From NCBI RefSeq assembly GCF_041381155.1, contig NC_091134.1, positions 55,501,944 through 55,565,943 on the forward strand: DNA of 64,000 nucleotides. The letters run 5' to 3'. The notes beneath the pieces were generated by a model, which saw nothing but the letters and a program-made list of their open reading frames with translations, was not told the DNA's origin and did not search any database. This stretch comes from Argopecten irradians. Lineage: Eukaryota; Mollusca; Bivalvia; Pectinida; Pectinidae. The position numbers and the translations under genes were made by a program. Positions 13,983 through 54,675 of the stretch are shown here, piece by piece (the stretch's first letter is position 1; each line of letters begins with the position of its first letter).

Positions 13983-14885
13983 ACAGTCAGTGTCTCCACT
14001 ACAAGTGTGAACATTCCGACAGTCAGTGTCTCCACTACAAGTGTGAACATTCCGACAGTCAGTGTCTCCACTACAAGTGTGAACATTCCGACAGTCGGTG
14101 TCTCCACTACAAGTGTGAACATTCCGACAGTCGGTGTCTCCACTACAAGTGTGAACATTCCGACAGTCAGTGTCTCCACTACAAGTGTGAACATTCCGAC
14201 AGTCAGTGTCTCCACTACAAGTGTGAACATTCCGACAGTCAGTGTCTCCACTACAAGTGTGAACATTCCGACAGTCAGTGTCTCCACTACAAGTGTGAAC
14301 ATTCCGACAGTCAGTGTCTCCACTACAAGTGTGAACATTCCGACAGTCAGTGTCTCCACTACAAGTGTGAACATTCCGACAGTGTGAACATTCCGACAGT
14401 CGGTGTCTCCACTACAAGTGTGAACATTCCGACAGTCAGTGTCTCCACTACAAGTGTGAACATTCCGACAGTCAGTGTCTCCACTACAAGTGTGAACATT
14501 CCGACAGTCAGTGTCTCCACTACAAGTGTGAACATTCCGACAGTCAGTGTCTCCACTACAAGTGTGAACATTCCGACAGTCAGTGTCTCCACTACAAGTG
14601 TGAACATTCCGACAGTCAGTGTCTCCACTACAAGTGTGAACATTCCGACAGTCAGTGTCTCCACTACAAGTGTGAACATTCCGACAGTCAGTGTCTCCAC
14701 TACAAGTGTGAACATTCCGACAGTCAGTGTCTCCACTACAAGTGTGAACATTCCGACAGTCAGTGTCTCCACTACAAGTGTGAACATTCCGACAGTCAGT
14801 GTCAGCACTACAAGTGTGAACATTCCGACAGTCAGTGTCTCCACTACAAGTTTGAACATTCCGACAGTCAGTGTATCCACTACAA
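13983..14885. repeat. 36-bp minisatellite, about 25 copies
   Basis: A highly uniform unit containing GTGTCTCCACTACAAGTGTG and AACATTCCGACAGTCA. One unit near 14380-14400 is shortened by 18 bases. Because 36 is a multiple of three, frames stay open on both strands (12-residue repeats such as VNIPTVSVSTTS on plus, VETLTVGMFTLV on minus). There is no splice or start context to support translation. Confidence 0.95.
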
Positions 14886-15870
14886 GTTACCTCTCCGATT
14901 CCTTACCTTTGACCATTACCAAAAGGTCGTAACTCCTTACCTTTGACCATTACCAAAAGGTCGTACCTCCTTACCTTTGACCATTACCAAAAGGTCGTAA
15001 CTCCTTACCTTTGACCATTACCAAAAGATCGTGACTCCTTACTTTGACCATTACCAAAATGTCGTAACTCCTTCCCTTTGACCATTACCGAAAGGTCGTA
15101 ACTCCTTACCTTTGACCATTACCGAAAGGTCGTAACTCCTTACCTTTGACCATTACCAAAAGATCGTGACTCCTTACTTTGACCATTACCAAAAGGTCGT
15201 AACTCCTTCCCCTTTACTATTGCCAAGACATCGTGATTCTTTGCCGTGACCATTGCCAAAAGGTCGTGATTATTTGCCGTGACCATTACCAAAAGGTCGT
15301 AACTCCTTACCTTTGACCATTACCAAAAGGTCGTAACTCCTTACCTTTGACCATTACCAAAAGGTCGTAACTCCTTACCTTTGACCATTACCAAAAGGTC
15401 GTAACTCCTTACCTTTGACCATTACCAAAAGATCGTGACTCCTTACCTTTGACCATTACCAAAAAGTCGTAACTCCTTACCTTTGACCATTACCAAAAAG
15501 TCGTTACTCCTTCCTCTTTACTATTGCCAAAACATCGTGATTCTTTGTCGTGACCATTGCCAAAAGGTCGTGATTATTTGCCGTTACCATTGCCAAAAGG
15601 TCCTGACTCTTTACCGTGACCATTACCAAAAGGTCGTGACCCTTTACCGTGACCATTACCAAAAGGTCGTGACTTTTTTCCTCTGACCATTACCAAAAGG
15701 TCGTGACTCCTTTCCTCTGACCATTACCAAAAGGTCGTGACTCCTTTCCTCTGACCATTACCAAAATGTCGTGTCTCCTTTCCTCTGACCATTACCAAAA
15801 GGTCGTGACTCCTTTCCTCTGACCATTACCAAAAAGGTCGTGATTTCTTACCTTGACCATTATTGAAAAT
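14886..15870. repeat. 34-bp minisatellite, about 29 copies
   Basis: The unit contains TTTGACCATTACCAAAAGGT and CGTAACTCCTTACC. Copies towards the right end change to CGTGACTCCTTTCCTCTGACC, so the array has at least two sub-blocks. It directly abuts the 36-bp array. Confidence 0.95.
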
Positions 15871-17424: not shown

Positions 17425-19973
17425 TTACATCATAAATCGTAAACCAAGCAACGCAAATGAGATGACCACATGCCTGGTCACACAAAAGGAAGATGTCCCT
17501 GATGCTGATGATGGCAATTGTTGAACTGCTGAACTCTCTGCTTCTGTCCCAGGTCTCCCTGCTTCGCGTCCTTGAATCACTGGTCCACGACGAGACATTG
17601 GAAAACATGGTTCATCAGAATCTGCACAGTACCTGAAAAACATTGATTCAATTTTTCGTCTTTCCTGTTGTTCTTTTATGATTTTGAATTCTGTTTTAGT
17701 GATAAATTCGCATGTCTTTATCGGTCGGAACTGGTTTAACTGGTACATTCCATACTCCGTCCTGTCAGGGAAAATGTCAGCGATTATACACAACAGCTCG
17801 TGTTCATTAGGGACGGCATCTAAGGACGCCATTACGGAATCAGACATTAGTAGATACCTCAAGTCTCTAACCATTGCTTCTAGATTTTCTGCTGTTTCCG
17901 TTTCGACATGGTATCGTATATTAACTTCGAGTAAACTCTCTTTTCTTTTTAAAACTACGTCTTGAAGCTGCGAGGTTTCCATGGTCCCTGAAAGACAGTG
18001 GTCTCGTATAAGGTTGAGAGGGTAGTGATCATATACATCCATTTCTGGTGGAGTTACGATTCCCAGAGCACAGAGAAGCTCCTTCAATGGCCAGATGTCT
18101 TCTCTCTTCACATCGTCGATATGTAAGTCCTTTCGGATAAAGTCACATACGGAGCTAATGGGGACGTTCTGCTCCATCTCTTTTTGTACCACTTTCCTCA
18201 GATAATTGCGAAATATTATTGGACTTCGATGTATGAGGATTCTTTTATTGTTATTCCTCTTTTCGATTGCCTCGCGCTTAAGGTGGGTAAATATTTCGGT
18301 TGTTAGATTACCACATTTCGACCTTGGCCTGAAACCAGATAAGGTATAGAATCCATACTCCATCTTCCTTGGAAATATTTCCGCAATGATACACAAAACT
18401 TCTTTTTCGTCTGGAAACTCTCCCAATGTATTCATGTAGTCGTCCTTTTGAAGCGAATTCTTGGCATCATTTGATATTCTGTCCGGGTCCTCTATTTCCC
18501 ATTGTTCGACACTACGTCTTACGGTCTCTGTTATCATTGTCTTTTTTCTCTTCAGCAGAATCGAATTCAGAGGGAAATCGTGTGCTGGTTGGTTACAATG
18601 ATCTCTCATTTCGGTCAGATCATAGTGGTCATACTGTATGTACTTACGATGGAAAAAGACCATGTTACAGAGGACGTCTCTTATCGGCCATTGGTGCCTT
18701 CTGTGAGTAATGAGAGGCTGAAAGTTGAGGTTCATACACATGTACGATACAGTCCTATTGCCATTAGTGCCATCTTGCACAGCTTCAAAGAGTTTATTTT
18801 CCGCGTGAGCCCAATGTTCCATTTCAGTAAAATTAAACAACTCGTTCTTAAAAATATTCAGCAGTTGATCTTGTTTTGTATGTATATTATCCCGGCTAGT
18901 TACACTCAGTATAACTCTTGTTAGGTTGCGGAATTGTGATATTTTCATTTCTGATTCGGTTATATTAGTTTCCTGTATATCATGGGCGTGCTGTAGCATT
19001 TCGTCAAACACACCAAGTGTTTCTGCAACTATCTCTGTGATATTTTTGAATTCGTTAACTAATGTGTCAATTACCAATGTGTAATTTGTTTGTAGTTTGT
19101 TTGCTTCAACAATATTGTGAATTAGTGTTTTACTGTCATTCCTATATTCCTCTATTGCTAATCTAAACTGATCTTCAAGTGAACTATACTTCTTTTGGTC
19201 GAAGTAAATCGAGATGGCAGACATGATCCCGGTCAATGCCCCGCCAGCGCGATTGACAAACGATCGGACCGATAGCTTGTTTGCATTCATATTCAACCGA
19301 ACATATTTGTATATGTTTTTTGGATGTTTGATAAATGTTGATATTTTACGTTTTGTCGAGCTCATTTTGTGCCTTATGTTTCCTAATTTATAGTTCAGGT
19401 ATTGTCTTGGGTATTTAACAGCATACTTTGCAGAGGTGAACATTTTTCTAAATGCACCTGATATACCGGATTTTATGGACTGACCAATCTGTTTTAAATT
19501 TCCGAATATGCCTTTTGGTTTACCATCACGTGAAACGTAAAACTCGTACATTTTAATTGATTCCCTTCTAAGTGGCATTAGTAATGTTTTTATCGCCTGT
19601 TCGATAACGAAGCCAATTACGGCCTGTTTTACATTGCTACTTTGTATATCACGTAGCTGGCTGTCCAGTTCCTGGTAAACAAATGTAATTGCTGCAATGT
19701 TTCCACGTAAACAGTCATCAATATCGTTTTGTTCAGCACAACGGAGATTTGTCCGGTCTAGTTCATGCACATGATTTACAACTTTACTGAATTTATCGAG
19801 ATCCCTGATATACGTTTGAATCTCTTCCATTTTTTCGCCTATTTGTCTTGCGCGACGAATCAGGTTTTCGAGAATGCTGTGGATGCCATTTAGTTCCTCT
19901 AGCTTAAGACTTATGTCTTCTTGCTGATGCTGTAGATCCTCTTTCAGACTACAGATGCTCGGTGTTGGGCACA
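17425..19973 (-). CDS. Gene B exon 3 (main coding exon)
   Basis: An 849-codon open frame begins right after a TTTTTACACTCAG acceptor and has no natural ATG at its start, so it needs an upstream exon. It opens CPTPSICSLKEDL and ends with a Ser-rich stretch plus HVVISFALLGLRFMM. Motif positions within the open frame: YDHY at 448-451 and 648-651, RDHC at 457-460 and 657-660, EYG at 539-541 and 740-742. Confidence 0.9.
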
Positions 19974-22900
19974 CTGAGTGTAAAAAGAGAACGTATCAAT
20001 AAATTGTTTATCCCAACACATATACCAAAGTATGTCGATCATAAGGTGAAATGTCGATTTTATATGTAAACATCGTGAATGTTTTATGGATAATTTGTAT
20101 GAGGACAATGCTCAAATAAGGTTACTTGAAGTAATGAAAATATTTGCGAGTTAGCGGTCGAGCGCAAACCATTGTGAACTAGTATGGAACGCCAGAATTA
20201 TTTTAAGGTATTAGGAACTATTATATGGTGCTTATATATTTATATGTGGTAGCTTTATCAATGCATCCGGTAGTTTAGTTAAAATATACGGTAATCATAC
20301 TTGTATAATGATTAAACTACCACATATAAAAAATATATGCACCGAATATAATAGTTTGTATGATCTCTGAGACAGTTCTAGTGTTTCATAAACTAGTTCC
20401 AAACAGAGATTCAATATAACATCACCAATCCAATCACTGTTCAAAAGTCGTTTAGCATCAAAACGCGAAATCGGATTGCCCCGGAAATAAGTTTATTTAC
20501 AACTATGAACAAATGAGAAAATATATTTCATGACATGTATCGCATATAAAACAATGTAGCATATATTATTACTAAAGTTGATGTCCAAGTTAATGGGTTT
20601 TTTTCCAAAATAGGTTAGCCTTTGTTAAATACTTTTCATTTTGTATCCATTATTAATTTGACTATCTCGTAAAATAGTGTTTTGAATTATAATTTTTTGG
20701 AAAAAACAAAAACGAAGCATTGCTCTTTGTTATCTAATTTATCCTGTTACGGGTTTTGTACACAATTTTATAAAGGTGTCTATGATCAGATTTGAATTTA
20801 CAGTCATCTAGGGCAAATATTGATTTTTCAAAAACTTCTCCTGACTTTATTTCAAGCCATTTCCGACAAAGATATTTCAACAATATCTTAGTTGGCCGTA
20901 TTTACTTTGCACTTTACAAAAATGAAACATATACGTACAGTATTATCAAAATGGCCATCGACTTGACCCGGAAAGCTATCGGCGCCAAATATCGAGATAT
21001 GGAACATGAGAAGGGGTAGAGTTAGGTTTGTTTTCACATGATGTCTGTTCATCTTAAAACCTGTTATTGTAGGACACTGTAGAAAAAGGCATTCTGACAT
21101 GCAAAAATTATCTCGATCGTGTCCGACTTAAGCAATATCGTCAATTGTAAAGTTTCGGGGCTGTATGCGACTGATTTACTATAACTTTTTGGCATATTAA
21201 AGGTTAACATTTACCTTTATATTTAGACCACTTCTGTTGAGATATCATGTCTGGTTAATTTAAAGTCGCCGCGCAAATTTACTGTTGTACAGAAAATCAT
21301 AACTCATTCCATTGTTCATGCTAATGGATATACTGGTGTACAGAAAAGCATAACTCATACCATTGTTCATGCTAATGGATATACTGTTGTACAGAAGATC
21401 ATAATTATTCCATTGTTGATGCAAATGGGTTTTTTGTCTTCGATGATTTCTTACCTGATACTGCCTGAGCAATTGTGATGCCTAGATCTACATACGGCAT
21501 GGCATTTCCACCCATGGAAATTACCTTCGTCAATGGCGATACAGTTCTCGGTACGTGTTTTATTGCTGAGAAAATAAAATACATTATGATGCTACAATAT
21601 GTGTTTACGGAAGGAGCTTATTTTCTCATAATAGAAGTTCAAGGATCATTTCTGTTGTTCGTTTGCCGTATTTAATTATTGATGTACGAGCGTATATTCG
21701 AATGTTTGCCAGGGAAATATCGGCATCGTTATTGCTAGTTTTCTCCACTTGTCAGGTATTAATCCAGAAGAAAAATTTCTCTTGATCATTTGAATAACAA
21801 ATAAAAATGTATAACTATCGTTTTTTTTTATAAAGGAAATATATCACGCACTTTACGAGTAGGATAGTATTAACCATTGATTTTTTTTTGTTTTTAAGGG
21901 AAGTCAACATTAATAATTACTCAAGTCCCATTATGTTTTTGATGAATGTTACGTAAACCAGACATATATTTCCATATGAATTTACAGTTCGACTAAAATG
22001 CAGATTAGAAATATATATTTAAAAACAAAGAACACAAAAATGTATTTGTCTAAAATATCATTTAAGGTCTGCACGCCCCCAGGTGTTCACCAGGTAAATG
22101 TGACCGACAGCATGGGGAAATTATTTATTCAATGTTTTATCATGTTCATGCTCATAACACAGGTTTTACTTTCTAGAATAAAAACGTGCTGCTTTATTAA
22201 AACTATGTACTCTGACGGTTTTAAACACACCTTGGTACACAGAAGTATCAATAAAGACAGAAGACGCGTCTGAAATGTGTATGATGAGCGTGTAGTCGCT
22301 TCGCTCTTACCTGAAAAAGTGGGCATTGTATGGTATCGTGCAAATACACTGTATCTTTGTTTACTAAATACAGACTTATTAAAGTAATTGTTTTTACGAG
22401 TAACTCGCTTACTGTTTACATATGACAATTATGTAATAATAATTTGTAAAGAATTAAAAGTCTTTAAGTTAGATTTTAAGTAATGTTGAAAGTTTTGGAT
22501 TGTGATAGTTTTTTTGAGTGTCGACTGTACTGGATGGTGCAACGTTTCTTTTTGATTACTTTAGTATATTGTAAATAAAACATGTCCCAATAATTGTAAA
22601 TAATATGTGATCTATTTATGTTATTATATCCACTCTACTTCCTCTCTTTTTATCTATTTATCTCTTTCTTCTCTCTTGTTTGTTCCACTTTAAGAAAATA
22701 ATTATGATACAATATTAATAGCATATATTATATGTTTTGTAAATTGTAATGGAGAGGGCGTTTGTAAGTAAGAAATAATTTGTGTGCGATCCTGTAGCTA
22801 ATATGGCAATAAAATATGTTTATATTAGAGACTCACTCTAAAAACAATGAAAATAAGATGGCCATGCATCGGCGTTCCTTGTCAACATCTATCAGTTGAC

Positions 22901-24396
22901 AAACACATTTGAGGTCAAAGATTATACCCACGTGTGAACTGTTGTATCACAACTGATTATCTCAGCAACCCCTCATTTATCACAAACCTGAATAACTACT
23001 GCATTTTTAATCACCCGGTACCTTATATTGTCATAAACCTACCAACTCTTATCATTTTAACATATTACAAAAACATAATGATACATGCCACCTAAAATAT
23101 AAATTCAAATGAAAACATCGAAAATGGATGTACAATAGATTCAACACTCGCCCATCCGCGATATTCCAGGGGTTACTATAACTTTTTATCGCTCCAAGGA
23201 CTACCTCATAGCAAAACTGGAGGCAACAGAACAGAACAGGAAATTTAGTCCTTTGATGTACATCAAAAGGGCCGTACAACGGTACATTGTGGTTGAATGT
23301 GTGGCTTTTAATCACCCGGTACCTTATATTGTCATAAACCTACCAACTCTTATCATTTTAACATATTACAAAAACATAATGATACATGCCACCTAAAATA
23401 TAAATTCAAATGAAAACATCGAAAATGGATGTACAATAGATTCAACACTCGCCCATCCGCGATATTCCAGGGGTTACTATAACTTTTTATCGCTCCAAGG
23501 ACTACCTCATAGCAAAACTGGAGGCAACAGAACAGAACAGGAAATTTAGTCCTTTGATGTACATCAAAAGGGCCGTACAACGGTACATTGTGGTTGAATG
23601 TGTGGCTTTGAAGTTGGGCGACGCTGTCTCTGTAGTCAACAAAGGAAATATTTGCAGGCCTGTGATTGGTTCAGATTGTTTCTCCTGGGCTGTCTTCAGT
23701 TTTACTATGAGATAGTCCAGGGGTGGATATAACGTCAGTTATAGTAACCCAATGAGTATCGAGGATGACTCGTTATAATTACCTGCTTTGAGTCCTTGAT
23801 ATGCTGCTTTCACCAGATGTGAAACTATCCCTCTCTTTTTTCGTATCTTATCAATCTGATGCATATAGTTGTCATCTAAGTTTGGAAACAAAACAAAAAA
23901 TAGTAAATGGATACGAGTTTACAGACAATAAGTGCTTGTTAGATTAGTATTTTATGCCCACCTGGCCCGAAGGGCCGGTAAGCTTTTAGAGTTCTGCTTG
24001 GAATGTAACCAAATTTGGCCAGAAACATCTTTGGGGGAAGGGAAACAGAGTTTGTATAAATTTTGGCTCTTATCCCCAAGGTACAGGAGGGGCGGGGCCC
24101 AATATGCTAAATAGGATAAATCCTTTAAATCGCTATTAGTCATAGAGTTCTTTATGGAATGTTGCCAAATTTGGCCAGTACATCCTAGGGTAAAGAGGAA
24201 CAGAGTTAAATTAATAAATTTTGGCTCTGAATCCCCGGGGACAGGAGGGGCGAGGCCCAATATGGGAAATAGAGTAAAAGCCTTTAAATCGCTACTTGTC
24301 AAAGAGTTTTGAATGGAATGTAACCAAATTAAGTCAGAAACATCCTTTAGGGAAGGGGAACATAGTTTGTATAAATTTTGGCTCTGACCCCCCCCA

Positions 24397-24427
<31 letters not shown>

Positions 24428-24730
24428 GACAGGAGGGGCGGGGCCAATAGGGGAAATAGAGGTAAATCCATTAAATCGCTACTTGTCATAGTGTTTTGCT
24501 TGGAATGTAACCAAATTAGTCCAGAAATATCCTTTGGTAAAGGGGAATAGGTTTTGTATTAATTTTGGCTCTGACCCCCCGGGGGCAAGAGGGGCGAGGC
24601 CCAATATTGGAAATAGAGGAAAAGCCTTTAAATCGCTACTTGTCAAAGAGTTTTGAATGGAATGTAACCAAATTAAGTCAGAAACATCCTTTAGGGAAGG
24701 GGAACATAGTTTGTATAAATTTTGGCTCTG

Positions 24731-24768
<38 letters not shown>

Positions 24769-27700
24769 GACAGGAGGGGCGGGGCCAATAGGGGAAATAG
24801 AGGTAAATCCATTAAATCGCTACTTGTCATAGTGTTTTGCTTGGAATGTAACCAAATTTGTCCAGAAATATCCTTTGGTAAAGGGGAATAGGTTTTGTAT
24901 TAATTTTGGCTCTGACCCCCGGGGGCAGGAGGGGCGAGGCCCAATATGGGAAATAGAGGTAAAGCCTTTAAAGCGCTACTTGCTATAGAGTTCTGAATGG
25001 AATGTAACCCAATTTGGCTAGAAACATCGTTAGGGGAAGCGGAACAGAATTTGTATAAATTTTGGCTCTGACCCCCTGGGGGTAGGAGAGGCGGGGCCCA
25101 ATAGGGGAAATAGAGGTAAAGACTAAATAGCTACTTGTCATAGAGTTCTGCATGGAATGTAACCAAATTTGACCTGAAACATACTTTTGGGAAGGGAAAC
25201 AGAATTTGTATAAATTTTGGCTCTGACCCCCTGGGGCAGGAGGGGCGGGACCCAAGAGGGGAAATAGGGGTAAATTCTTTAAATCGCTACTAGTCTTTGA
25301 GTTCTGTATGGATTGTAACCAAATTTGGCCAGAAACATTTTTCGCGGAAGGGGAACAGAAACATCCTTGGGGGAAGAGGAATATAGTTTATATAAATTTT
25401 GGCTCCGACCCCCGTGGGCAGGAGGGTCGGCATTAGCATTACAAATCAGTTGAACGATACAGCCCCTCTGGGCCTCTTGTTTTCTCTTGATCAATCGATG
25501 TGAGGAGTGATTTGGTCGTAACAAAATGTACATAAAATACATGATACATAGTATTAAGTATAGACACTGTTAGTATAACAATATTACCGTATTTGGAATT
25601 ACACTGTAATTTAGATTTTTACGTATTTTTATTATATTTTAGTTGCAGGGATTTATCAAGTATCTACACAATCTATTTAATTGTATCAATATTAGTACAA
25701 ATACTCACTTAGTGTGTCATTTCTTATCCTTCTTTCTCCCTTGACCTTCATAACTTTTCTTCTACCATCGCTGGAATCTTAAATGAAAATGCACGGAGTG
25801 ATACCTTTGGTAAATTGACCCCATTTGATTGTCATCAAGAAAATATAATTATAAATCTAAAACACTAATGAATATTTGTAAGGAACAACACAAATTAAAA
25901 TTGTATTGAAACTTTCCATTCTATAGTCCTTTGACTTATCTTATCAATGTTGAAAAAATGGTTTAAAAATAACAACAATGCGATATTGTTGATATTAAAC
26001 TACTGTGTAAGTATTTAACTATGATGTCACAGTTTTATCTATACTAAGGCCAAAAAATATGTCTAGGGTTACATTGGCAAAAAAATAGGGTCGGTCGGTC
26101 GGGAGGATTTTTTTTTTTTTCACTCTAAAATGATGACTGGAACTGGAGTCTTTTTAATTTCTTTTCGTAGAAAAGTGAAAAAATAAATTAGGGTCGGGGG
26201 TAAAAAAATAGGGTCGGTCGGGTGACCCTAACAGACATATTTTTTTTGGCATAATAGATAACCTTAGAAAGGTAATGTACCCGTGGCAGAAAATCGCAAA
26301 ATAGAAAATCAACACGTTACTACTGAAATAACCGAACATGAAATATCATTTACACTTAGAACATTAAATCATACACAATCGTTAAGGGAAGATAGTGTTT
26401 ATCCTAGAGTAGTGAGAGGAAACACTTCGAACGATTCACAAGAGGACAAGAACTTTCCTGGAAGTATAGGTTAGTGAGTTTGAACCAGCCTCAATATGTC
26501 AGTTTTCGGAGAAATTATCAGGAAAAAAACCCAACTAGTAATCGCCTCGAAAACAATTATCTCTGGTTAACCATTAATATTGATTCGTTGATGGAATGTC
26601 TACTTTTTCACACCTGATAAAGTTGATGAGTGAACGGGTATAAATCTAGATCAAGGAGGATCAATCGAAACAATGTTTACATATGTAGATTTCATGAAAA
26701 CGTTTCGCTATACCTGTTTAAAATCATGCTCCCGAAGATAATCTACAGCCAAATCAAAATCAAATTGAAGTGAATTTCAGTATTATCGAGATATATATTA
26801 ATCTGCAGGTTTAAACTCGCGAACGTAAATCGCACGCGAAAGAAAGTTAGTTTATGGTATTCTATGCCGTAAGGTTATATTAGTACCTATTTGTATTTAG
26901 GACGTACTCTCATTTATGTCAATGACCTTCCCGTGGATCCACGTATCTATTCACAGATAATGATTTATAAGATAATCAGCTTCAAAAGCGATATGAAATA
27001 TAATACACGAAATTATTGAAGGCTTAGAGCAAGCATGATACAAGGGGACCAAGCCGTCTTAAAGGGAATTTTAATGCAAAACTTTAGGACATTTTGTGGG
27101 AACATAAACAATCTAAGAAAATACTCATTATGTCAGCGGGTTGTTAATTACTGGAACTTCAGCCAACAGGGAAATCATTTGAAGCTCGTTTTAATTGCCT
27201 TTTTATTCAAATGATTTGTTTGCCTTTTAGAATATGATGAACATATCTTTAATTAGATTATATACATTGTGAAACACTGAGATTGACCCTAATGCTATTT
27301 CAACCGTGATCCGGATATACAGGCATAAAAGGCCTGCGTCCAGTGTATTATCAATATTGTCTTAAATTAAATGATATAATAATATAATAAATAGAGACAT
27401 ATCAATAAAAAAACAAAAGTTTAATATATCCTCGATACTCCAGGAGTTACTATCACTGTCGTAGATATCACGACAGTAATAGTAGATATTACCACATGAA
27501 TAATAGATATAACTACAGTAATATATGTTACCATAGTAATAGCATATATTACCACAGTAATAGTAGATATCGACATATTAATAATAGATATTACCACATG
27601 AATAATAGATATAACTACAGTAATATATATTACCATAGTAATAGTAGATATCGACATATTAATAATAGATATAACTACAGTAATATATATTACCATAGTA

Positions 27701-29440
27701 ATAGCATATATTACCACAGTAATAATAGATATTGCCATATTAATAGAATATATTACCACAATGATATAATAAAGATAGATATAACTAACAGTAATATATA
27801 TTAACATATAATAGCAATATATTACCACAGTAATATAATAGATTCCTAATATAGACATATCCATATAATATAGATAAAGAATATATTACCACATGAATGT
27901 AATAGATATAACTACAGTAATATATATTACCATAGTAATAGCATATATTACCACAGTAATTATAATAGATATTGCCATATTAATAGTACAGTGTATATAT
28001 TACCACATGAATAATAGATATAACTACAGTAGTATATATTACCAAATGAATAATAGATATAACTACAGTAGTATATATTACCAAATGAATAATTGATATA
28101 ACTACAGTAATATATGTTACCATAGTAATATCATATATTACCACAGTAATAGTAGATATCGACATATTAATAGTAGATATTACCACATGAATGATAGATA
28201 TAACTACAGTAATATATATTAACATAGTAATAGCATATATTACCACAGTAATAATAGATATTGCCATATTAATAGAATATATTACCACATGAATGATAGA
28301 TATAACTACAGTAATATATATTACCATAGTAATAGCATATATTACCACAGTAATAATATATATTGCCATATTAATAGAATATATTACCACATGAATGATA
28401 GATATAACTACAGTAATATATATTACCATAGTAATAGCATATATTACCACAGTTATAATAGATATTGCCATATTAATAGTACAGTGTATATATTACCACA
28501 TGAATAATAGATATAACTACAGTAGTATATATTACCACATGAATAATAGATATAACTACAGTAATAGTAGATATTGGCATGTTAATAGTAAATATTGCCA
28601 TATTAATAGAAGATATTGCAATTTTAATCGAAGATTTTGCCATCTTAATAGTATATATTACCACATGAATAATAGATATAACTACAGTAGCATATATTAC
28701 CACATGAATAATAGATATAACTACAGTAGTATATATTACCATAGTAATAGCATATATTACCACAGTAATAATAGATATTGCCATATTAATAGTAGATATT
28801 ACCACATGAATAATAGATATAACTACAGTAGTATATATTACCACATGAATAATAGATATAACTACAGTAGCATATATTACCACATGAATAATAGATATAA
28901 CTACAGTAGTATATATTACCACATGAATAATAGATATAACTACAGTAGTATATATTACCATAGTAATAGCATATATTACCACAGTTATAATAGATATTGC
29001 CATATTAATAGTACAGTGTATATATTACCACATGAATAATAGATATAACTACAGTAGTATATATTACCACATGAATAATAGATATAACTACAGTAATAGT
29101 AGATATTGGCATGTTAATAGTAGATATTGCCATATCAATAGAAGATATTGCAATTTTAATCGAAGATATTGCCATATTAATAGTAGATATTACCACAGTA
29201 ATAGTAACTCCATTAAACAAGTCACAAAATATGATTGCGTATGGTCTCACAAACGGAGGATAGAACCATGTGTTTGGAAAAGTTAGCATTCCACACTTCT
29301 TCGACGACACTGACCATACAAATCGAGTTCAAGCCAGTTCTTGATATATTTTACTGTGTAAATGAAAAATAATTATATTTACCTGGATAAGCCAAAGATA
29401 CCGCTAGCATGAGCAACAGCAAAATCCAGGCACCTTTCAT
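17425..29440 (-). CDS. Gene B: predicted secreted/GPI-anchored helical protein with four cysteine half-repeats (uncharacterised)
   Basis: I do not recognise this gene. Three-exon model, all joins phase 1: exon 1 29440-29383, exon 2 23875-23783, exon 3 19973-17425; about 899 aa. Exon 1 gives a signal peptide, exon 2 a short basic segment with RKKR. Exon 3 gives a helical N-terminal part (about 60-190), a Lys/Arg-rich stretch (about 200-285), a short hydrophobic segment (about 291-308, GGALTGIMSAISIYF), several N-glycosylation sequons (about 347-456), then two about 200-residue modules (about 477-625 and 676-825) and a Ser-rich tail ending in a hydrophobic segment, as in GPI-anchored proteins. 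Each module has two half-repeats, L-C-x(11,12)-Y-x2-Y-x-L-x3-R-x(2,4)-C. Gene C, 2.8 kb away and divergent, is a paralogue. Exon 3 is secure; exons 1 and 2 are inferred from splice sites and phase. Confidence 0.7.
20216..20356. repeat. Nested inverted repeat (foldback element)
   Basis: Arms of about 37-40 bases (20216-20252 and 20317-20356) run from AACTATTATAT...GGTGC to the reverse complement, with a second inverted pair inside (GGTAGTTTAGTT and GATTAAACTACC). Probably a small mobile element in gene B intron 2. Confidence 0.65.
20357..21279. other. Gene B intron 2, part without clear features
   Basis: AT-rich. The open frames here have no splice context or recognisable similarity. Confidence 0.4.
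21280..21432. repeat. 51-bp tandem repeat, three copies
   Basis: TACTGTTGTACAGAAAATCA...CATTGTTCATGCTAATGGATA repeated at 21280, 21331 and 21382 with a few substitutions. Confidence 0.85.
21433..23005. other. Gene B intron 2, no clear feature
   Basis: AT-rich sequence with only short spurious open frames. Confidence 0.4.
23006..23607. repeat. 301-bp tandem duplication
   Basis: Two adjacent copies (about 23006-23306 and 23307-23607) that appear identical over their length, starting at AATCACCCGGTACC. It is a very recent duplication or an assembly artefact. Confidence 0.9.
23783..23875 (-). CDS. Gene B exon 2 (inferred)
   Basis: 93 bases (31 codons, phase 1 in and out), with a strong acceptor (a T-rich tract then CCAAACTTAG) and donor GCAG/GTAATT. 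It reads DNYMHQIDKIRKKRGIVSHL and then VKAAYQGLKA. Other frames contain stops. The RKKR-G site could be a proprotein cleavage site, which is an inference. Confidence 0.55.
24388..24425. repeat. Poly-C run (about 38 bases, one A)
   Basis: Expansion of the CTGACCCCC position of one tandem unit of the surrounding element. See also 24732-24766, 343 bases further on. Confidence 0.9.
24732..24766. repeat. Uninterrupted poly-C run of 35 bases
   Basis: Pure C on the plus strand at the same place in the tandem unit as 24388-24425; other units have only 5-7 C. Confidence 0.9.
25483..26048. other. Gene B intron 1, possible unplaced exon only
   Basis: AT-rich. On the minus strand, 25771-25710 has an acceptor-like TTCCAG and donor-like CTAA/GTGAGT around an open stretch reading GRRKVMKVKGERRIRNDTL, but its phase (2 in, 1 out) does not fit the gene B exons, so it is not included. 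Confidence 0.3.
26049..26250. mobile_element. Inverted-repeat MITE
   Basis: About 27-bp terminal inverted repeats: left GCCAAAAAATATGTCTAGGG, right the near reverse complement ending ATATTTTTTTTGGC. The interior holds two copies of AAAAAATAGGGTCGGTCGG. Confidence 0.7.
26251..27439. other. Gene B intron 1, no clear feature
   Basis: AT-rich; a fragment near 26805-26855 (CTCGCGAACGTAAATCGC) resembles part of the MITE at 10605-10835. No exon supported. Confidence 0.35.
27440..29215. repeat. AT-rich tandem array (about 36-bp units) with a 532-bp higher-order duplication
   Basis: Units combine ATATATTACCACATGAATAA and TAGATATAACTACAGTA with variants. The segment carrying GATATTGGCATGTTAATAG occurs at 28567 and 29099 (532 bases apart) with matching surroundings, showing block duplication. 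Open frames on both strands come from the repeat and lack gene context. Confidence 0.9.
29383..29440 (-). CDS. Gene B exon 1, signal peptide (inferred)
   Basis: ATG at 29440 gives MKGAWILLLLMLAVSLAYP, a textbook signal peptide, followed by donor CCAG/GTAAAT in phase 1. The phase fits exon 2 and exon 3. The intron would be 5.5 kb. Confidence 0.6.
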
Positions 29441-29654
29441 GTCGTTCACTCAATTGTGTTTCGACGAGAACTTCCTGCGCTCCCCGTCGATAAGATATTA
29501 ATGTAGGTTATAATAATTAAAACACAATAATTCCGAACAATTACATTTATTTTAATGCAATATTCTTAGTAATCGTTTTCATTTGTGAAGTGTTTGTGTT
29601 GTAGAATACGTTTTTTCAAAATAAACACGGGATGAACATTACCTTTATTTATTT

Positions 29655-29686
<32 letters not shown>

Positions 29687-32223
29687 TTAATAAAGAAAAC
29701 TTAATTCTATAAAATTTCCTATCTTATTCAAACTATCTGTTTACTGCTTCGGTTACTAAGTATACGCCTTCAGAGAACAACAAACAAGCTTAAGCCATGG
29801 ACAGAGGATTTCTATCAGATTGATAAAATTTCACAAAAAATATTAAGCAAGTAGCCAATCAATATGATTAATACATTATGCCTCACCTTGTGTCGTCCTT
29901 ACGTCTTCAAAGGCGTTGCAGACATTGCTACGACGAAGCTTCTAGAAATTCCATTTATCGGTTACTATTTGGAAAACCCAATCTTTTGATAGGAAGTAAA
30001 TCTAATATCATGGTATGTGGACGTTTCCCATTAGTCATAAAGGTGTTTTAAATAACCAAGGTCAGAGATCGTAATCTGATAACAGAATAAATAGTATCGC
30101 ATGGATAAATATAAATATTTAAGGAATGAATTTTGAGTTGATCACGGTTACTAAAAATCAAAAGTTATTCCTTATACTCACAATTTTCTGTATAATGTAA
30201 AACCTTTTTCTGATTAGAAATGTTTTTATTTTCTATAAAATACTTGGTTCTAAGATCTTGTTCTATCGGAACTTATCGTCTGTTATCGAGGCTGTGTTCC
30301 GAGGTTCATTTACGTCACGTCATTTCATGAATCGCCAATACCGCCGTCACGTCATCACATCACCAGCCCCGTCGGTATATTATACAATGATCATGATATT
30401 TTTCAATAGAATAGTTATTGCGACAATGTCAGTACAATGTTTGCTCTTGGTTTCGCTTCACCATTGCGATATGACTAATGCGATAATATCATATGACTTA
30501 CCTTACTATGGTACAATGGAGGTTGAGTTATATATAACATATTACAAATACCCCAAAATACTGTATATATTCATAACAAGGTCACACGTTTTACCTTCTC
30601 TTGTTAGCTCAACCTATCGGGTATCGAATTTAATAGTCATTTCCTCTTACTCAATTTGTAGTATCAACTTGGTTATAGTATCAAATTAGAAACATATATA
30701 CCTATCTAATATCTTTCTGATCAAAATTGGACTGCATTAATACTATCATGAAAGTTTAGAATTTAGTTTGCTTGTATGTTTATATACAATTTATATTGTG
30801 AAAAGGTTTTTGCTTTGCACTTTGCGAGTTCGGGTGAACAAAGTTAAAATTGTATATATAATGTTCTTATTATACCTATTACATAAATTATCACAAATGA
30901 AAATTGTTCCAATTTAATATAATTTTCAATACGTGTAAAATAAAAGTCTCCGTTTCTAAATTTTCAACTTCATACTTTAAGAACGTTTGTGGAGGAAACA
31001 GTCACACACAATCGTTTAGTCTCGATTTAGTACAGCGGTACTTAACATTTAATGTAGTATCTATTAATGAATTTGTTATGACTAGAACCGTCAGTGATAA
31101 AAAAAATATATACTGCTGTGTGAATGTAATTTTAACCGAAACATGAAATTGAAATTCAAGCTGCTTTTGACTTTTAAACCTTTTCTTTAGAATAAATATC
31201 TACATCGCACAGCATCCATAGTAGATAAAATATCAATTTTATTTGACCATGCTTATTATTGTTTTACTTCTTCAGTACATGCCATGACTTAATATCTTAA
31301 AAATAACCCATCTATCATTTTCTTACAATGTTGTGACAATGCTTTATATGCAGTAGTGATCTAGTATATCATATATTTGGCACTATGATAAGATTGTGAA
31401 ACTGAAACTAGTTTCCAGGAAAGTATTACTCAGCTGCACCTGTATCGAAACCGCCATGGGTTTAAAGGTAGAGTGAACTAAATTGATTAATAGTTCGCAC
31501 TATATATACGTGAAGTATAATAGCAACACTCCGGCCATATACTAACACTAGTACTATAATGTAACATTATTGCTGCATTCAAAAGCTCCTTATAAACTAA
31601 CAAATTTTATTAGTATCCTTTTCACACAAAAGAATATCTTATAAATACTACAGTGCTATATAGCACACACAATTTAGAGTACTGTTTAAAGTGAAAGTAA
31701 ACCTAAATATCAATGTTATGTACCTTTGGTACGAGTATGTTGAACATTATGCTCGATGATGTGTTTGATTATAGGTGAGGAGATTGATACAACATTGTAA
31801 AATGGTGATAATCAAAGGTATAATTAACTTTTTTTTATTTAATTTACTAGACATACGTTTTCAAATTTTAGTATGTGTACCGCCTAATTCAGTAAATATC
31901 GGATTTTCAATGTAGATGATAGGAAAATCATCAGAAAGTAAAGGATAATAGTTGCATCTGTAAACAATACCCTTTAGTTACTGGTTTCAGAAATACGTTG
32001 ATCGTGTGTGAAGCTCTATTTTTGAAGCGCCACGTTATCTGGAAAAACCGTTCTAGTCTTTTGACAATCAATGCTATAGTCATTTTACTCGAATTATCTT
32101 TCATTAATTTTAAAGCATTGAACATCGATTCTAATGCAATTTTGTTTGGGAATCCCAATACAGAAAGTAGTGCATGAGGTACCTGCTTGTTTTACTTCAA
32201 AATACAATACTTTAAACATCACG
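29441..32223. promoter_or_regulatory. Shared upstream region between divergent genes B and C
   Basis: 2.8 kb separates the first exons of gene B (leftward) and gene C (rightward), so it should hold both promoters. Visible contents: a (TTTA)n microsatellite at about 29643-29690 and AT-rich sequence. Open frames at 30258-30689 (+) and 31931-32158 (-) have no splice or similarity support. No core promoter element is convincing. Confidence 0.4.
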
Positions 32224-35200
32224 ATGGCCACAGGTTTATGCGGGTAAGTTTGTTTTTAACATTATTTTGTTGAAATATCTTTGTCATTAGTGAATATTAA
32301 TCTTCTATATAGAATTCCTAGATCCATATGGGATTTAAAATTATCAAATAATAAACTTGATAGTCTTTTGGTGAAATCTTGGCTTGGTTAGCTTGGGTAA
32401 GGGAAGGATTAGAGTGGTTTCTATTGAACAACTGTATAACAAATTCAATGTCATTCCTTTATAACAGTCAGATATCTGATACTTATCGTAATACATGTAT
32501 TTAGTATCATATAAAGATGCCGTCTCGGTATCACTGATAGATTGAATTTCCTTTGGATGTTCAAGATATCCCTCTTTCGGTTATGAAAAAAAAGTTAGTT
32601 TCTTTAACACATATACAGAGCTGTGAACATAAATGCTAATCAATATATACAAAGTCGTTCATATAAATGCTAATTAACATATCTGATTTCAGTACTAGAC
32701 GGAGCCAGAACATTACATGTGTTATTGTTCGGTTATATTTGGCGTGGTTGATTATGACACAGACCTGCAGAGGAAGTAAGGACATCATATTTGGCTGTTG
32801 TCTTTTCTTTAATGTCTTTATGTTTTAATTATCTTAATATACCAGATCAATTAAAAAAAACATTTTTTACGCTATTTATATATCTGTATAATTTATCTAG
32901 ACATTACGAACTTAGAATAGCAGATCTAAGTTACCTAATGTCATTCAAGGGAAATAACTAGTGTTGGAGTATAACTATAGGAATAGCAATAGACTATATA
33001 ATAATAATATATTATGATTACTTTTACAGATAGCATTGAATGTCCTCGTCTCAATGACCAGACCATGATAACACTGGATCTTATCACAGGTATATATTAT
33101 ATGTATGTAAGGAAATAGAACTCGGGAATTCCAGTTTCGTTTCTGTTTGCAAAAAAAAATAATAATAATAAAAGGAACATATCAATGTATGACAATATAC
33201 TAATTATATATATGAGTACACACATTAAGAATAAAGAAAATTCCTATAAAAAGTCATTCAATTTGATATATAGAGTAAATTCAATTAAATTCGTAACAAA
33301 GTCCTTGTAATAAATTCTTCGGATATAGAGTGCATAACGAATTGTGGATTAGAAATGTAGCTTGCAACATTCAGCGAATAGACGAATAATATATAATAGG
33401 TGCTAAATAGTGGATTTATTCATGAATGTGTATGATTGAAAACAATGCAATTAGATACATCAACATATAGGCTCTGGCGTACATTGTTGACATTAACAAT
33501 AATAGACTTTATTTATACTTGATAACATATTGAGTCAAAAGGCTCATCTCACATATGATCAAGGTAGTGAAAAAGCATAATGTTGAAAATTTGGGATAAA
33601 ACATATTAGAGGATGGATGACAATTAACAATCAATCACAGTTCAATTTAAAAGAGATGGAGAATAATAATAGTCACCAATAATATGTATAATAAAATTGA
33701 AGTATAGAGCCCTAGGGATCACCTACTGCGAGGGATTAAGGATCACTTAAGAGTTTTTTTAATTTAACGGTTTGAAACAGATTATTAATATAGCTTTTAC
33801 ACAATATCACAGTACTTTCACAACAATCATACGAGCTTTTTCTTTTTTTAAAGTGGACTTGGAAAAGCATAGGTTAGGTTACATGTATACAAAATGTATA
33901 CTATACATGGTACACACTATGCTCAATATGATTGCCGTAGTTGTTTAAATGCACCATACCAGGCGTGTGATACAGGCGATGTAAAATGATACTGGCTACT
34001 GGATTAGCATTGATCCATAGTCAATTATAATTTAGTTTGATTTACAAGTCACAGTGAAAAAAATCATAATTTAACAAAGATGCATTTTTTCAGAAGGATG
34101 CAGAGGACAACAAAGACTTATCTGTAACTACCTAGAGGATATCCAACAGTACCGAAAGGAAGCTTCCGAGCTGCTAACGCAAGTCTGTCTAAAGTATGAG
34201 CGGTCAAGCGGACAGCCTGAGTGGCTGAACAAAGTCCAGTCTAACAATCGATACATTACTGACCAACTTTACATCAACCTGAAACGTCGTGTCACTATAC
34301 TGGAGAATAACAACAAAATAGACACACTGATGAAGACACATCTTGTCCAATATCTTGGATCCAGATCGTCAGCAAAGTTATCGTTCTTTTCGTTTATCGA
34401 TAAACTTATGCAGCCTCTCGAATACAAACTGTCTACCATTTACACATTCGTTGACGATTTACAATCCGAAAATGCATTCATGGAAAGCGCAGTTATTCGA
34501 GAAATCAAAATATCGTCGGTTCAAAATTTAATCAAGCTCTGTTCAGAATTCCATATAAATTACAACATTTCATACCTCGAAACATGCGAAGAGAAAAACA
34601 TGGCGGTTTATTTGAAAATGTTTTCTGGTAACGTATCATCGTCTGACGCTAATGTTCTAAAAAGTGGTCACCATGCCGAGTACGCTACTATATATAAAAA
34701 GTATGGACGAAGGGCTGAGAGGTATCCTGTAACGTGGCGGGTGGTAATGGACTTGATACGCGATGGCTTGCAGAATGTCAACACAAGTGAGACATTTGAG
34801 ACACTGAACCAATATGCTGTATTTCCGACGGAAAGCTTAAATATCTTCAACACGCTCATATCGAAATTACGCTATAAGCTTGATACGGACCCAGACCCAG
34901 AGATGTTCCGTGTGAAATTGAAGTCAGTATTTCCTTTTACATTAAAAGGAATCGATTGGATCAAAAACATTACAAAGGCAATAGAACAGAAAGAACTGAG
35001 TATTATCCGTCTAGCAGAAAAGAGAGATTGGCTCGAAGTAATGTTCCAAATGTACCTACTCATTCAATCATACTCAATGTTTGTCGGTAGGCTTTTTAAT
35101 TTCCATACTGGGCTCACAGCTGAACAGAAAACGAGTCAATCTGAGGTGGAAGGTCTTTCTGAAATTTGTGTTGGTGAATTTCAAGATATCTTGAATATCT

Positions 35201-36201
35201 TAGATACTCTTCGGAATATAACAACGAGTCGATATACTCCGGAACAGCACGGGATGGTTTCACTCGAATATCAATATATTCCTGGTCAAATCAAAGGTTT
35301 AGGACTTTCCAACATTATACTGCACCATGAGAGAAAACTTCTTCCGTGGATCGTGTCCGAGTTTAATCTGGAGCGACTAGGCGACTGGATGGAAGCACGA
35401 TTATCTTTATATGAGGAATTGTCAAGGAGCTCCGACTATAGAAAGTCTGTTAGTGGTATCCTGTCATCGCTTGCAGCCAAGTTTTGTAAATATGGCGGCC
35501 AATCTGTAACTTTGGATACGGTTGTTTCCCCGGGGGACATATTATGCACACTCTCTACAGTCAGAATGGATTTCAATGACTACGATTCATATCCTCTTCA
35601 AATCCTACGAGACAAATGTGGGTCTTCAAATTACCCTACTTCTGTCTTGTGTTGTGACACAGTTAATCAACGCAAAGTGACACTGGTTGAACAGGCGGTT
35701 CGTGAAGCTATTGCAAACCAAAGGCAGGGAGATGTCGACTTCATCTTCGATTGCATCTACAATAAATTGAGAAACGATGCTATTTCGAAAAAGTATGGAC
35801 TGACTGTTAGCAAGTTAGATATACTACACACTGTTTCTAAACTTTATCCTCAAATGGAAAACTTTGGATTTTACCAAGTGTCTCTCTTCAAACATTCCAG
35901 TCTTTCAGAAGACGCGTTTAACTTACTGTTGTCATTTGCTATCGAGCGAAGGAACTTGTTTACGAGACAAACGCTTCGGAAACAGTTTTGCGATGTTCAT
36001 GGGTTTTGCACTGAACACAAATCCTCTATAGGTAACATAACTAGTGAACAGATTCATGATATGGTACATATTGTAGTAGAGAAAGGGATGGAGGCACCAG
36101 CACAGAAACAAGCAGCACATCGCATTGCATCTGTTGCACCAAGAACTCACATGAACATCCATTACTCATTCCTTCTGCTGGTCTTTTTCGTAATACTGTA
36201 A
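32224..36201 (+). CDS. Gene C: predicted secreted/GPI-anchored helical protein, paralogue of gene B (uncharacterised)
   Basis: I do not recognise this gene. Four-exon model with consistent phases: 32224-32243, 32693-32775, 33030-33089, 34094-36201; 756 aa. Exons 1-2 give MATGLCG and then a hydrophobic signal-like stretch ending WLIMTQTCRG. Exon 3 reads SIECPRLNDQTMITLDLIT. Exon 4 holds a long, mostly helical region (about 55-530) and a module at about 535-678. Half-repeat 1 is complete (ILCTL...DYDSYPLQILRDKC, 537-563). Half-repeat 2 keeps spacing and aromatic positions (LDILH...ENFGFYQVSLFK) but has His in place of the first Cys and no second Cys. The tail IHYSFLLLVFFVIL suggests a GPI signal or membrane anchor. 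Similarity to gene B covers the modules and the overall plan. Confidence 0.8.
32693..32775 (+). CDS. Gene C exon 2, signal sequence
   Basis: Acceptor ATTTCAG and donor GGAA/GTAAGG. It joins exon 1 (ATGGCCACAGG... donor CGG/GTAAGT) in phase 2 and gives TCVIVRLYLAWLIMTQTCRG, a probable signal peptide core. Confidence 0.7.
33030..33089 (+). CDS. Gene C exon 3
   Basis: 60 bases, phase 1 in and out, acceptor CTTTTACAG and donor ACAG/GTATAT. It reads SIECPRLNDQTMITLDLIT. The CP near the mature N-terminus parallels CPTPS at the start of gene B exon 3, where the intron phase is also 1. Confidence 0.7.
33090..34093. other. Gene C intron 3
   Basis: AT-rich; 33494-33570 matches the dispersed repeat at 3047-3145 (AATAGACTTTATTT, ATATTGAGTCAAAAGGCTCA). 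No other feature seen. Confidence 0.5.
34094..36201 (+). CDS. Gene C exon 4 (main coding exon)
   Basis: Open from the acceptor (TGCATTTTTTCAG) to TAA at 36201. It begins GCRGQQRLICNYLEDIQQYR, upstream of the first long-frame ATG at 34330, so that internal ATG is not the true start. It carries the repeated motif and the hydrophobic C-terminus. Confidence 0.9.
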
Positions 36202-37984: not shown

Positions 37985-40900
37985 TATTTTGCTACATCAA
38001 CATGGTCTTATTCTTCTACAGTCTTGCTTTTCTACATTAACATGGTCTTGTTTTCTACATTAACAGGTCTTGTTTTCTACATTAACAGGGTCTTGTTTTT
38101 CTACATTAACAGGTCTTGTTTTCACATTAACATGTCTTGTTTTTCTACATTAACAGGGTCTTGTTTTTCTACATTAACAGGTCTTGTTTTCTACATTAAC
38201 AGGGTCTTGTTTTTTCTACATTAACAGGGTCTTGTTTTTCTACATTAACAGGGTCTTGTTTTTCTACATTAACAGGGTCTTGTTTTTCTACATTAACAGG
38301 GTCTTGTTTTTCTACATTAACAGGGTCTTGTTTTTCTACATTAACAGGGTCTTGTTTTTTCTACATTAACATGGTCATGTTTTTCTACATTAACAGGGTC
38401 TTGTTTTTCTACATTAACAGGGTCTTGTTTTTCTACATTAACAGGGTCTTGTTTTTCTACATTAACAGGGTCTTGTTTTTCTACATTAACAGGGTCTTGT
38501 TTTTCTACATTAACAGGGTCTTGTTTTTCTACATTAACAGGGTCTTGTTTTTTCTACATTAACAGGGTCTTGTTTTTCTACATTAACAGGGTCTTGTTTT
38601 TACATTACAGTCTGTTTTCTACATTAACAGGGTCTTGTTTTTCTACATTAACAGGGTCTTGTTTTTCTACATTAACAGGTCTTGTTTTTCTACATAACAT
38701 CTTGTTTTTCTACATTAACATGGTCTTGTTTTTCTACATTAACAGGGTCTTGTATTTCAACATTAACAGGGTCTTGTTTTTCTACATTAACAGGGTCTTG
38801 TTTTCCTACGTTAACAGGTCTTGTTTTTCTACATTAACAGGGTCTTGTTTTTCTACATTAACAGGGTCTTGTTTTTTCTACATTAACAGGGTCTTGTTTT
38901 TCTACATTAACAGGGTCTTGTTTTTCTACATTAACAGGGTCTTGTTTTTCTACATTAACAGGGTCTTGTTTTTCTACATTAACAGGGTCTTGTTTTTCTA
39001 CATTAACAGGGTCTTGTTTTTCTACATTAACAGGGTCTTGTTTTTCTACATTAACAGGGTCTTGTTTTTCTACATTAACAGGGTCTTGTTTTTTCTACAT
39101 TAACAGGGTCTTGTTTTTCTACATTAACAGGGTCTTGTTTTTCTACATTAACAGGGTCTTGTTTTTCTACATTAACAGGGTCTTGTTTTTCTACATTAAC
39201 AGGGTCTTGTTTTTCTACATTAACAGGGTCTTGTTTTTCTACATTAACAGGGTCTTGTTTTTCTACATTAACAGGGTCTTGTTTTTCTACATTAACAGGG
39301 TCTTGTTTTTCTACATTAACAGGGTCTTGTTTTTCTACATTAACAGGGTCTTGTTTTTCTACATTAACATGGTCTTGTTTTTCTACATTAACAGGGTCAT
39401 GTTTTTCTACATTAACAGGTCTTGTTTTTCTACATTAACAGGTCTTGTTTTTCTACATTAACAGGGTCTTGTTTTTCTACATTAACAGGGTCTTGTTTTT
39501 CTACATTAACAGGGTCTTGTTTTTCTACATTAACAGGGTCTTGTTTTTCTACATTAACAGGGTCTTGTTTTTCTACATTAACAGGGTCTTGTTTTTCTAC
39601 ATTAACAGGGTCTTGTTTTTCTACATTAACAGGGTCTTGTTTTTCTACATTAACAGGGTCTTGTTTTTTCTACATTAACAGGGTCTTGTTTTTCTACATT
39701 AACAGGTCTTGTTTTTCTACATTAACAGGGTCTTGTTTTTCTACATTAACAGGGTCTTGTTTTTCTACATTACAGGGTCTTGTTTTTCTACATTAACATG
39801 GTCTTGTTTTTCTACATTAACAGGGTCTTGTTTTTCTACATTAACAGGGTCTTGTTTTTCTACATTAACAGGGTCTTGTTTTTCTACATTAACAGGGTCT
39901 TGTTTTTCTACATTAACAGGGTCTTGTTTTTCTACATTAACAGGGTCATTGTTTTTCTACATTAACAGGGTCTTGTTTTTCTACATTAACAGGGTCTTGT
40001 TTTTCTACATTAACATGGTCTTGTTTTTCTACATTAACAGGGTCTTGTTTTTCTACATTAACAGGGTCTTGTTTTTCTACATTAACAGGGTCTTGTTTTT
40101 CTACATTAACAGGGTCTTGTTTTTCTACATTAACAGGGTCTTGTTTTTCTACATTAACAGGGTCATGTTTTTCTACATTAACAGGGTCTTGTTTTTCTAC
40201 ATTAACAGGGTCTTGTTTTTCTACATTAACAGGGTCTTGTTTTTCTACATTAACAGGGTCTTGTTTTTCTACATTAACAGGGTCTTGTTTTTCTACATTA
40301 ACATGGTCTTGTTTTTCTACATTAACAGGGTCTTGTTTTTCTACATTAACAGGGTCTTGTTTTTCTACATTAACAGGGTCATGTTTTTCTACATTAACAG
40401 GGTCTTGTTTTTCTACATTAACAGGGTCTTGTTTTTCTACATTAACAGGGTCTTGTTTTTCTACATTAACAGGGTCTTGTTTTTCTACATTAACATGGTC
40501 TTGTTTTTCTACATTAACAGGGTCTTGTTTTTTCTACATTAACAGGGTCTTGTTTTTCTACATTAACAGGGTCTTGTTTTTCTACATTAACATGGTCTTG
40601 TTTTTCTACATTAACAGGGTCTTGTTTTTCTACATTAACAGGGTCTTGTTTTTCTACATTAACAGGGTCTTGTTTTTCTACATTAACAGGGTCTTGTTTT
40701 TCTACATTAACAGGGTCTTGTTTTTCTACATTAACAGGGTCTTGTTTCTCTACATTAACAGGGTCTTGTTTTTCTACATTAACAGGGTCTTGTTTTTCTA
40801 CATTAACAGGGTCTTGTTTTTCTACATTAACAGGGTCTTGTTTTTCTACATTAACAGGGTCTTGTTTTTCTACATTAACAGGGTCTTGTTTTTCTACATT

Positions 40901-53496: not shown

Positions 53497-54675
53497 AAAA
53501 CAAGAGATCCCAGAGGGATCTTGGCGCCCACCAAAGAATGATCTATATCTGACAAAGGACTACTTTTTAAACTTTATTCAAACATACTACATATAAAATT
53601 TGAGACAGATCGATTCAGTACCTTTTGAGAAATAGCGGTAACAATCTTCAACTATCGAAATCCAAGATGACTCCTTGGCGGCCATCTTGTTGATCAATCG
53701 GTCCCAAATCACAATATGCACAAATAGGGCCCTAGGGGAACCTACATGTGAAATTTGAGAAAGATCCATCCAATACTTTCTGAGAAATAGCGATAACAAA
53801 CTTTGAATATTAAAATCCAAGATGGCTGCCTTGCAGCAATCTTGTTGACCGATCGGTCCCAAATCACAATATGCACAAATAGGGCCCTAGGGGAACCTAC
53901 ATGTGAAATTTGAGAAAGATCCATCCAATACTTTCTGAGAAATAGCGATAACAAACTTTGAATATTAAAATCCAAGATGGCTGCCTGGCAGCAATCTTGT
54001 TGACCGATCGGTCCCAAATCACAATATGCACAACTAGGGCCCTCGGGGAACCTACATATGAATTTTGAGACAGATCCCTTCAGTGCTTTCTGAGAAATAG
54101 CGATAACAAACGTTGAATAACAAAATCCAAGATGGCTGCCTGGCGGCCATCTTGTTTACCGATCGGTCCCAAAATGCAATATGCACAAATAGGTCCCTAG
54201 GGGAACCTACATATAAAATTTGAGACAGATCCCTTCAGTACTATCTAAGAAATAGCGATAACAAACTTTAACTATCAAAATCCAAGATGGCGGCCTGGCG
54301 GCCATCTTGTTGACCAATCGGTCCCAAAATGCAATATGCTCAACTAGGTCCCTAGGGGAACCTACATATAAAATTTGAGACAGATCCCTTCAGTACTATC
54401 TGAGAAATAGCGATAACAAACTTTAACTATCAAAATCCAAGATGGCGGCCTGGCGGCCATCTTGTTGACCAATCGGTCCCAAAATGCAATATGCACAACT
54501 AGATCCCTAGGGAAACCTACATATAAATTTGAGACAGATCCCTTCAGTACTATCTGACAAATAGCGATAACAAACTTTAACTATCAAAATCCAAAATGGC
54601 GGCCTGGCGGCCATCTTGTTCACCGATTGGTCCAAAAATGCAATATGCACAACTAGGGCTCTAGGGGAACCTACG
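53497..54675 (-). mobile_element. Pearl-like element B, reverse-oriented, 5'-truncated
   Basis: It opens AAACAAGAGATCCCAGAGGG, the reverse complement of the tail of the element at 61211-63213, and continues with about seven tandem units of about 155 bp containing AAGATGGCGGCCTGGCGGCC. The head (hairpin and short microsatellite) is missing at the 54675 end. Confidence 0.75.

Follow-up and report, generated by a model that had tools for sequence, protein, structure and literature searches.

Two predicted genes, B on the minus strand and C on the plus strand, lie head to head in the analyzed window, a stretch of 64,000 nucleotides of the Argopecten irradians genome (C1:55501944-55565943 of an 845.8-Mb assembly in 1508 contigs). 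The open frame of gene B extends from 17425 to 19995 (minus strand, 856 codons) and that of gene C from 34075 to 36201 (plus strand, 708 codons). From base composition alone (G+C content of the window 0.35), open runs of these lengths have a chance of about 4e-28 and 2e-23, respectively. In the sequence-based model, gene B consists of two exons and encodes a protein of 868 amino acids. Exon 1 (29383..29440, minus strand) holds the start codon and a predicted signal peptide (MKGAWILLLLMLAVSLAYP) that is clear by hydropathy, the only measure used, and exon 2 (17425..19973, minus strand) would encode the entire mature protein and the stop codon. The donor of exon 1 is in phase 1 and followed by GTAAAT, and an acceptor at 19973, behind a pyrimidine tract, restores the frame. 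This first exon was picked among several candidates; other phase-1 candidates lie at 33604 and 22326, with hydrophobic stretches that are later or weaker in both cases. About 3.6 kb of the resulting 9.4-kb intron is made up of tandem arrays located within 23005-29206, including an exact 301-bp doublet (23005-23609), an array rich in C runs (24083-25360) and an AT-rich array of a 21-bp unit (27461-29206).

The model of gene C, which is likewise sequence-based, has three exons on the plus strand and predicts a protein of 736 amino acids. Exon 1 (32224..32243, MATGLCG) ends in a phase-2 donor (GG|GTAAGT), so that gene C has an extra 5' intron compared to gene B. Exon 2 (32693..32775) carries the hydrophobic core of the putative signal peptide and a phase-1 donor, and exon 3 (34094..36201) would encode the entire mature protein and the stop codon. 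With an alternative start, an in-frame ATG at 32667, the interval between the two genes would be wider. By hydropathy, the signal peptide of C is weaker than that of B, with an arginine within the hydrophobic stretch.

In the chosen models, 2783 bp separate the two start codons (29441..32223), and within this interval there are just two inverted-repeat pairs, both weak (28 and 19 nt, 79%). A previous sequence-only reading of this DNA had described a pair of paralogues diverging from a 2.8-kb interval, each with a signal-peptide-like start. Our gene models agree with both points, exons with usable splice sites being present for B and for C, even if the choice of exons is not unique. The same reading had taken the shared intron phase near the mature N-terminus as support for common descent by inverted duplication. 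We did observe a phase-1 junction into the long exon in both models, but it is weak evidence of descent, since phase-1 introns are in excess near the signal-peptide cleavage sites of human genes according to PMC7259759. From the layout of the sequence, an inverted (head-to-head) duplication would nevertheless be the simplest reading of the arrangement of the two genes, which may also be co-regulated and act as partners.

Apart from their signal peptides and C-terminal tails, the predicted proteins contain 16 (B) and 14 (C) cysteines, when the first three of C are counted to the signal peptide and C850 of B to the tail. N-glycan sequons number eight in B and seven in C, and one of those in C falls inside the presumed signal peptide. 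The middle of B is strongly basic (residues 171-260; 19252..19521, minus strand), residues 181-270 having zero D/E and 13-14 K+R per 60 residues. A hydrophobic stretch lies ahead of this part (about residues 136-154) and a glycine-rich one, below the hydropathy limit used, continues it (about residues 262-277). By its composition, the acid-free middle part of B could bind membranes or polyanions. With an acid-free, basic segment placed between these two stretches, B and C might even be a membrane-active pair, in which the middle of B and its flanking segments act on lipid membranes and the cysteine modules merely target or regulate this activity. We regard this explanation as very improbable: the basic stretch is absent from C, the body of the protein gave no usable model (full-length B, modelled with C as alignment, reached a pLDDT of 38.3 and a pTM of 0.22 and was discarded), and the sole family match nearby is a sub-threshold ferritin-like one at B residues 245-307 (NCBIfam PRK15022, E 0.0011, scoring 18.8 bits where 154 are required).

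Both proteins end in a tail that resembles a GPI signal when judged by eye. The tail of B (17428..17508, minus strand) consists of small residues, a short spacer and a hydrophobic end, and that of C (36124..36198, plus strand) also finishes with a short hydrophobic end. The two tails are dissimilar in sequence but have, by eye, the same layout: small residues, then a spacer, then a hydrophobic end that is not followed by a cytosolic tail. These observations are consistent with a GPI anchor on both proteins, and they argue against the proposal that B and C are soluble secreted or matrix proteins whose hydrophobic ends are not anchors. That proposal, which draws on the short length of the hydrophobic ends (about 10-14 residues) and on the arginine present within that of B, seems to us rather unlikely. 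GPI-anchored surface proteins with disulfide-pinned domains are a general kind in animals, and B and C are like them in the signal peptide, the N-glycan sites, the cysteine modules and the short hydrophobic end. Unlike them, B and C carry a module for which the searched libraries gave no named domain above cut-off.

The modules are built on a cysteine half-repeat, for which the sequence-only reading had proposed the pattern L-C-x(11,12)-Y-x2-Y-x-L-x3-R-x(2,4)-C, with four copies in B and two in C. The four copies in B stand: the cores lie on the minus strand at 18595..18672 (residues 454-479, module 1 half a), 18313..18396 (residues 546-573, module 1 half b), 17995..18075 (residues 653-679, module 2 half a) and 17710..17793 (residues 747-774, module 2 half b). 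The residue numbers first given for them were about 7 below the actual open-frame positions. Gene C has a single strict copy (35542..35619, plus strand, residues 518-543). Its second copy (35824..35901, plus strand, residues about 612-637) aligns to module half b but is degenerate: the first Y is replaced by F, L by V and R by K, and both cysteines are missing. Since both cysteines were lost together from this copy, the cysteines of LC and R-x(2,4)-C may pair with each other. Across all six reading frames of the window, the strict pattern without a stop was found only at the four sites of B and the one of C, and it did not appear in 2000 shuffled versions of either protein (0/2000 for B, 0/2000 for C).

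When half a and half b were compared as profiles, we observed a match over 42 columns that covers the motif region and not the whole half (P 5.8e-5, probability 65.7). In single-sequence shuffle tests of nine pairs, B2-B3 gave 0/1000 and B3-B4 4/1000, and the other seven gave 14 to 264/1000. Sequence comparison thus supports the half-repeat over about 42 residues, seven of the nine single-sequence pairs not being strong.

Common descent of the two genes is well supported for the C-terminal modules, which align in BLASTP over about 200 residues at 25% identity (E 1e-13) and exceed all shuffles (z 27, 0/500). When module 2 of B was used to search the genome, it matched module 1 with 36% identity (E 8.4e-23) and C with 25% identity (E 1.3e-7); a self-comparison of B by BLASTP returned the self line only, and the likeness of modules 1 and 2 comes from this genome search and from shuffles. 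As the two modules of B are closest to each other, module 2 of B probably post-dates the separation of B and C, or C has lost a module. Codon differences at the first, second and third positions were 90, 74 and 118 in 170 codons between B modules 1 and 2, and 106, 86 and 116 in 168 and 102, 78 and 118 in 164 between each of these modules and that of C, a pattern of constrained coding sequence.

Beyond the module, the descent from a common gene put forward in the sequence-only reading is less firmly borne out. The bodies of B and C are barely alike (33/500 shuffles local, 2/500 global) and we observed no likeness of the post-module stretches (163/500 shuffles). A pre-module stretch common to B and C (FN...W..A...L.E) was reached by 1/5000 shuffles, and the N-terminal head, the first 46 mature residues (IC...ED.Q), is weakly alike with 26/5000; the former was picked after seeing the alignment and the latter also post hoc. 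The results for the bodies, and the frequent occurrence of phase-1 junctions behind signal peptides (PMC7259759), could be explained by domain shuffling, the module alone being shared between unrelated bodies and the head-to-head position being secondary. We consider this quite improbable because in each gene model a single exon holds both the body and the module, the genes are adjacent with the same layout, and the similarity reaches, in the post hoc selections, to the pre-module stretch and the head.

We compared both proteins and their modules with collections of known families. In Pfam, every family listed for whole B and whole C was under its curated cut-off. For B, five families were listed, the best being the Fibrinogen alpha/beta coiled-coil family (Fib_alpha, PF08702), a weak match at open-frame residues 7-119 (E 0.021; 15.5 bits, cut-off 29.9) that most likely reflects generic coiled-coil similarity; for C, Plexin_RBD reached 13.1 of 27 bits. 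The sub-cut-off matches of the whole proteins (Fib_alpha, BORCS6, CpxA_peri, YtzH, BLOC1_2 and Plexin_RBD) were regarded as chance or coiled coil. With single modules, the best Pfam match among the three had an E of 0.0094, and none was found for B module 1; Plexin_RBD (E 0.0094, one of three members), Glyco_transf_15 (E 0.03) and DUF7556 (E 0.046) were set aside. Also set aside, as chance or coiled coil, were the NCBIfam matches PRK15022 (E 0.0011) and Mbov0283 (E 0.21) and nine PHROGs matches to B (best E 0.0051). PADLOC gave no match, and no PDB sequence was better than E 0.38, the weak matches to 2ip6 (E 0.38 and 0.47) being set aside. The claim that the modules belong to no known named domain is therefore sustained in so far as none exceeded a Pfam cut-off. 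Among the matches listed in a literature word search, no title concerned this family.

In the viral and prokaryotic collections, which are able to show a foreign origin only, tblastn of B against phage records found nothing, and non-exhaustive scans by a few short peptides gave 3 and 188 pattern matches in IMG/VR and 22 in GTDB, with no relative confirmed. We also searched the 846-Mb assembly itself with C (limit E 0.001), B (limit 1), B module 2 (limit 10) and the C module (limit 10), and these credibly matched only each other; since the search scores the best candidates only, the copy counts are lower bounds. The body of B alone (limit E 10) matched only itself. Two candidates for further module copies, on C2 (E 1.21) and C12 (E 4.56), have two internal stops each and were rejected. 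Family searches of this assembly for COX1 and for mollusc haemocyanin gave no hit, the latter with no control signal.

The structure of the module was predicted from B residues 425-605, with an alignment to two relatives, i.e., three sequences from one locus. The model has a mean pLDDT of 69.8 and a pTM of 0.60. It is confident over residues 71-170 (blocks 74-92), which span half b, the connecting helices and, in half a, the long helix. The pLDDT falls below 50 at residues 1-24 and at 40-46, where half a makes its turn, and no block up to residue 60 averages more than 52. In both halves, the order of elements is a helix, two short strands at Y-x2-Y-x-L, one or more short helices and a long helix, half a being of low confidence. 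The model thus loosely supports the half-repeat. A Foldseek search with the module found no PDB match at E 0.001 or better (best E 4.5, 15 matches up to E 10), and in BFVD the best E was 1.2 (59 matches up to E 10). This miss is weak evidence, as the model is moderate, is derived from three sequences and is low in half a.

Taken together, the modules had no relative over cut-off in Pfam, NCBIfam, PHROGs, PADLOC, PDB, BFVD, IMG/VR, GTDB or phage records, which provisionally suggests that they are novel. Three module sequences alone make a profile of low sensitivity, and B and C might accordingly be divergent members of a named or catalogued animal family that lies beyond the reach of its models. 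We think this unlikely, although it is the strongest of the alternatives: whole B and C fall under every listed Pfam cut-off, the modules do not go below E 0.0094, and the PDB sequences (E 0.38) and the Foldseek searches of PDB and BFVD (E 4.5 and 1.2), the latter with a moderate model, add no closer match. The opposite reading is tentative, and we give it somewhat less than an even chance: the module would be an undescribed extracellular domain of tandem disulfide-pinned half-repeats, present here in only two head-to-head genes, and no named family or solved fold would include it. With slightly more confidence than doubt, we favor the explanation that B and C are old head-to-head paralogues encoding a helical surface protein that is restricted to the lineage, disulfide-bonded and probably GPI-anchored. 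Confidence in this explanation and in the new-domain reading is reduced because half a of the model is of low confidence and the two halves match as profiles over 42 columns only.

According to the explanation by old paralogues, the ancestor would be a gene for a secreted, surface-held and mainly helical protein that was duplicated head to head in inverted orientation. The chains of B and C would enter the secretory route through the signal peptide, bear N-glycan sites and disulfides, and probably end in a GPI anchor. Their outer part would consist of a long body, probably helical, and then of one module in C or two in B. Each module would be made of two half-repeats, each of them probably a helix, a tight turn at Y-x2-Y-x-L, a short helix and a long helix, with a probable disulfide between the cysteine of LC and that of R-x(2,4)-C. 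As to the order of events, the half would have duplicated first, B and C would then have separated, and B would have duplicated its module (or C would have lost one); the second half of C would have lost its two cysteines together. From this layout, the likeliest role would be recognition or adhesion, the body acting as a spacer from the membrane and the module as the part that binds a partner.

If this explanation is true, the locus would hold a family of two genes sharing a new cysteine half-repeat, with a readable order of origin (half, gene pair, module), and the copy of C without the cysteine pair would be a natural test of the disulfide. Orphan surface or secreted proteins are frequent in invertebrates, but a domain that can be defined is open to modelling and then to a search for it in further species. 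The pair alone does not answer any long-standing question. Among the lineage-restricted secreted proteins of molluscs, CRASP of Achatina is comparable: PMC4596865 describes it as cysteine-rich, secreted and without detectable relatives at the time. Unlike CRASP, which is an 18.1-kDa soluble protein in that account, B and C have 736-868 amino acids, a long body and hydrophobic tails.

Several other features were observed in the window. Downstream of gene C, an 11.6-kb satellite (38021-49622) consists of about 483 copies of a 24-bp unit with 94% matches. Between gene B and its left neighbour, two runs of a 36-bp minisatellite, followed by one with a 34-bp unit, are arranged head to tail (13983-15862), and the 36-bp minisatellite has long open frames on both strands, encoding repeated peptides. 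A 155-bp tandem repeat with a GACCGATCGGTC palindrome forms two arrays (53587-54674 and 61326-62960) in opposite orientation, as judged by eye. The open stretches at 59587-59892 and 63483-63830 have hydrophobic segments and may be exons of a membrane protein (best Pfam E 0.085). At the other end of the window, the open stretches at 155-406 and 2893-3183 (plus strand) have weak SacI (Syja_N) matches below cut-off (E 0.024 and 0.0041) in the correct order, and they could be exons of a gene for a phosphoinositide phosphatase of the SAC type, perhaps FIG4-like.
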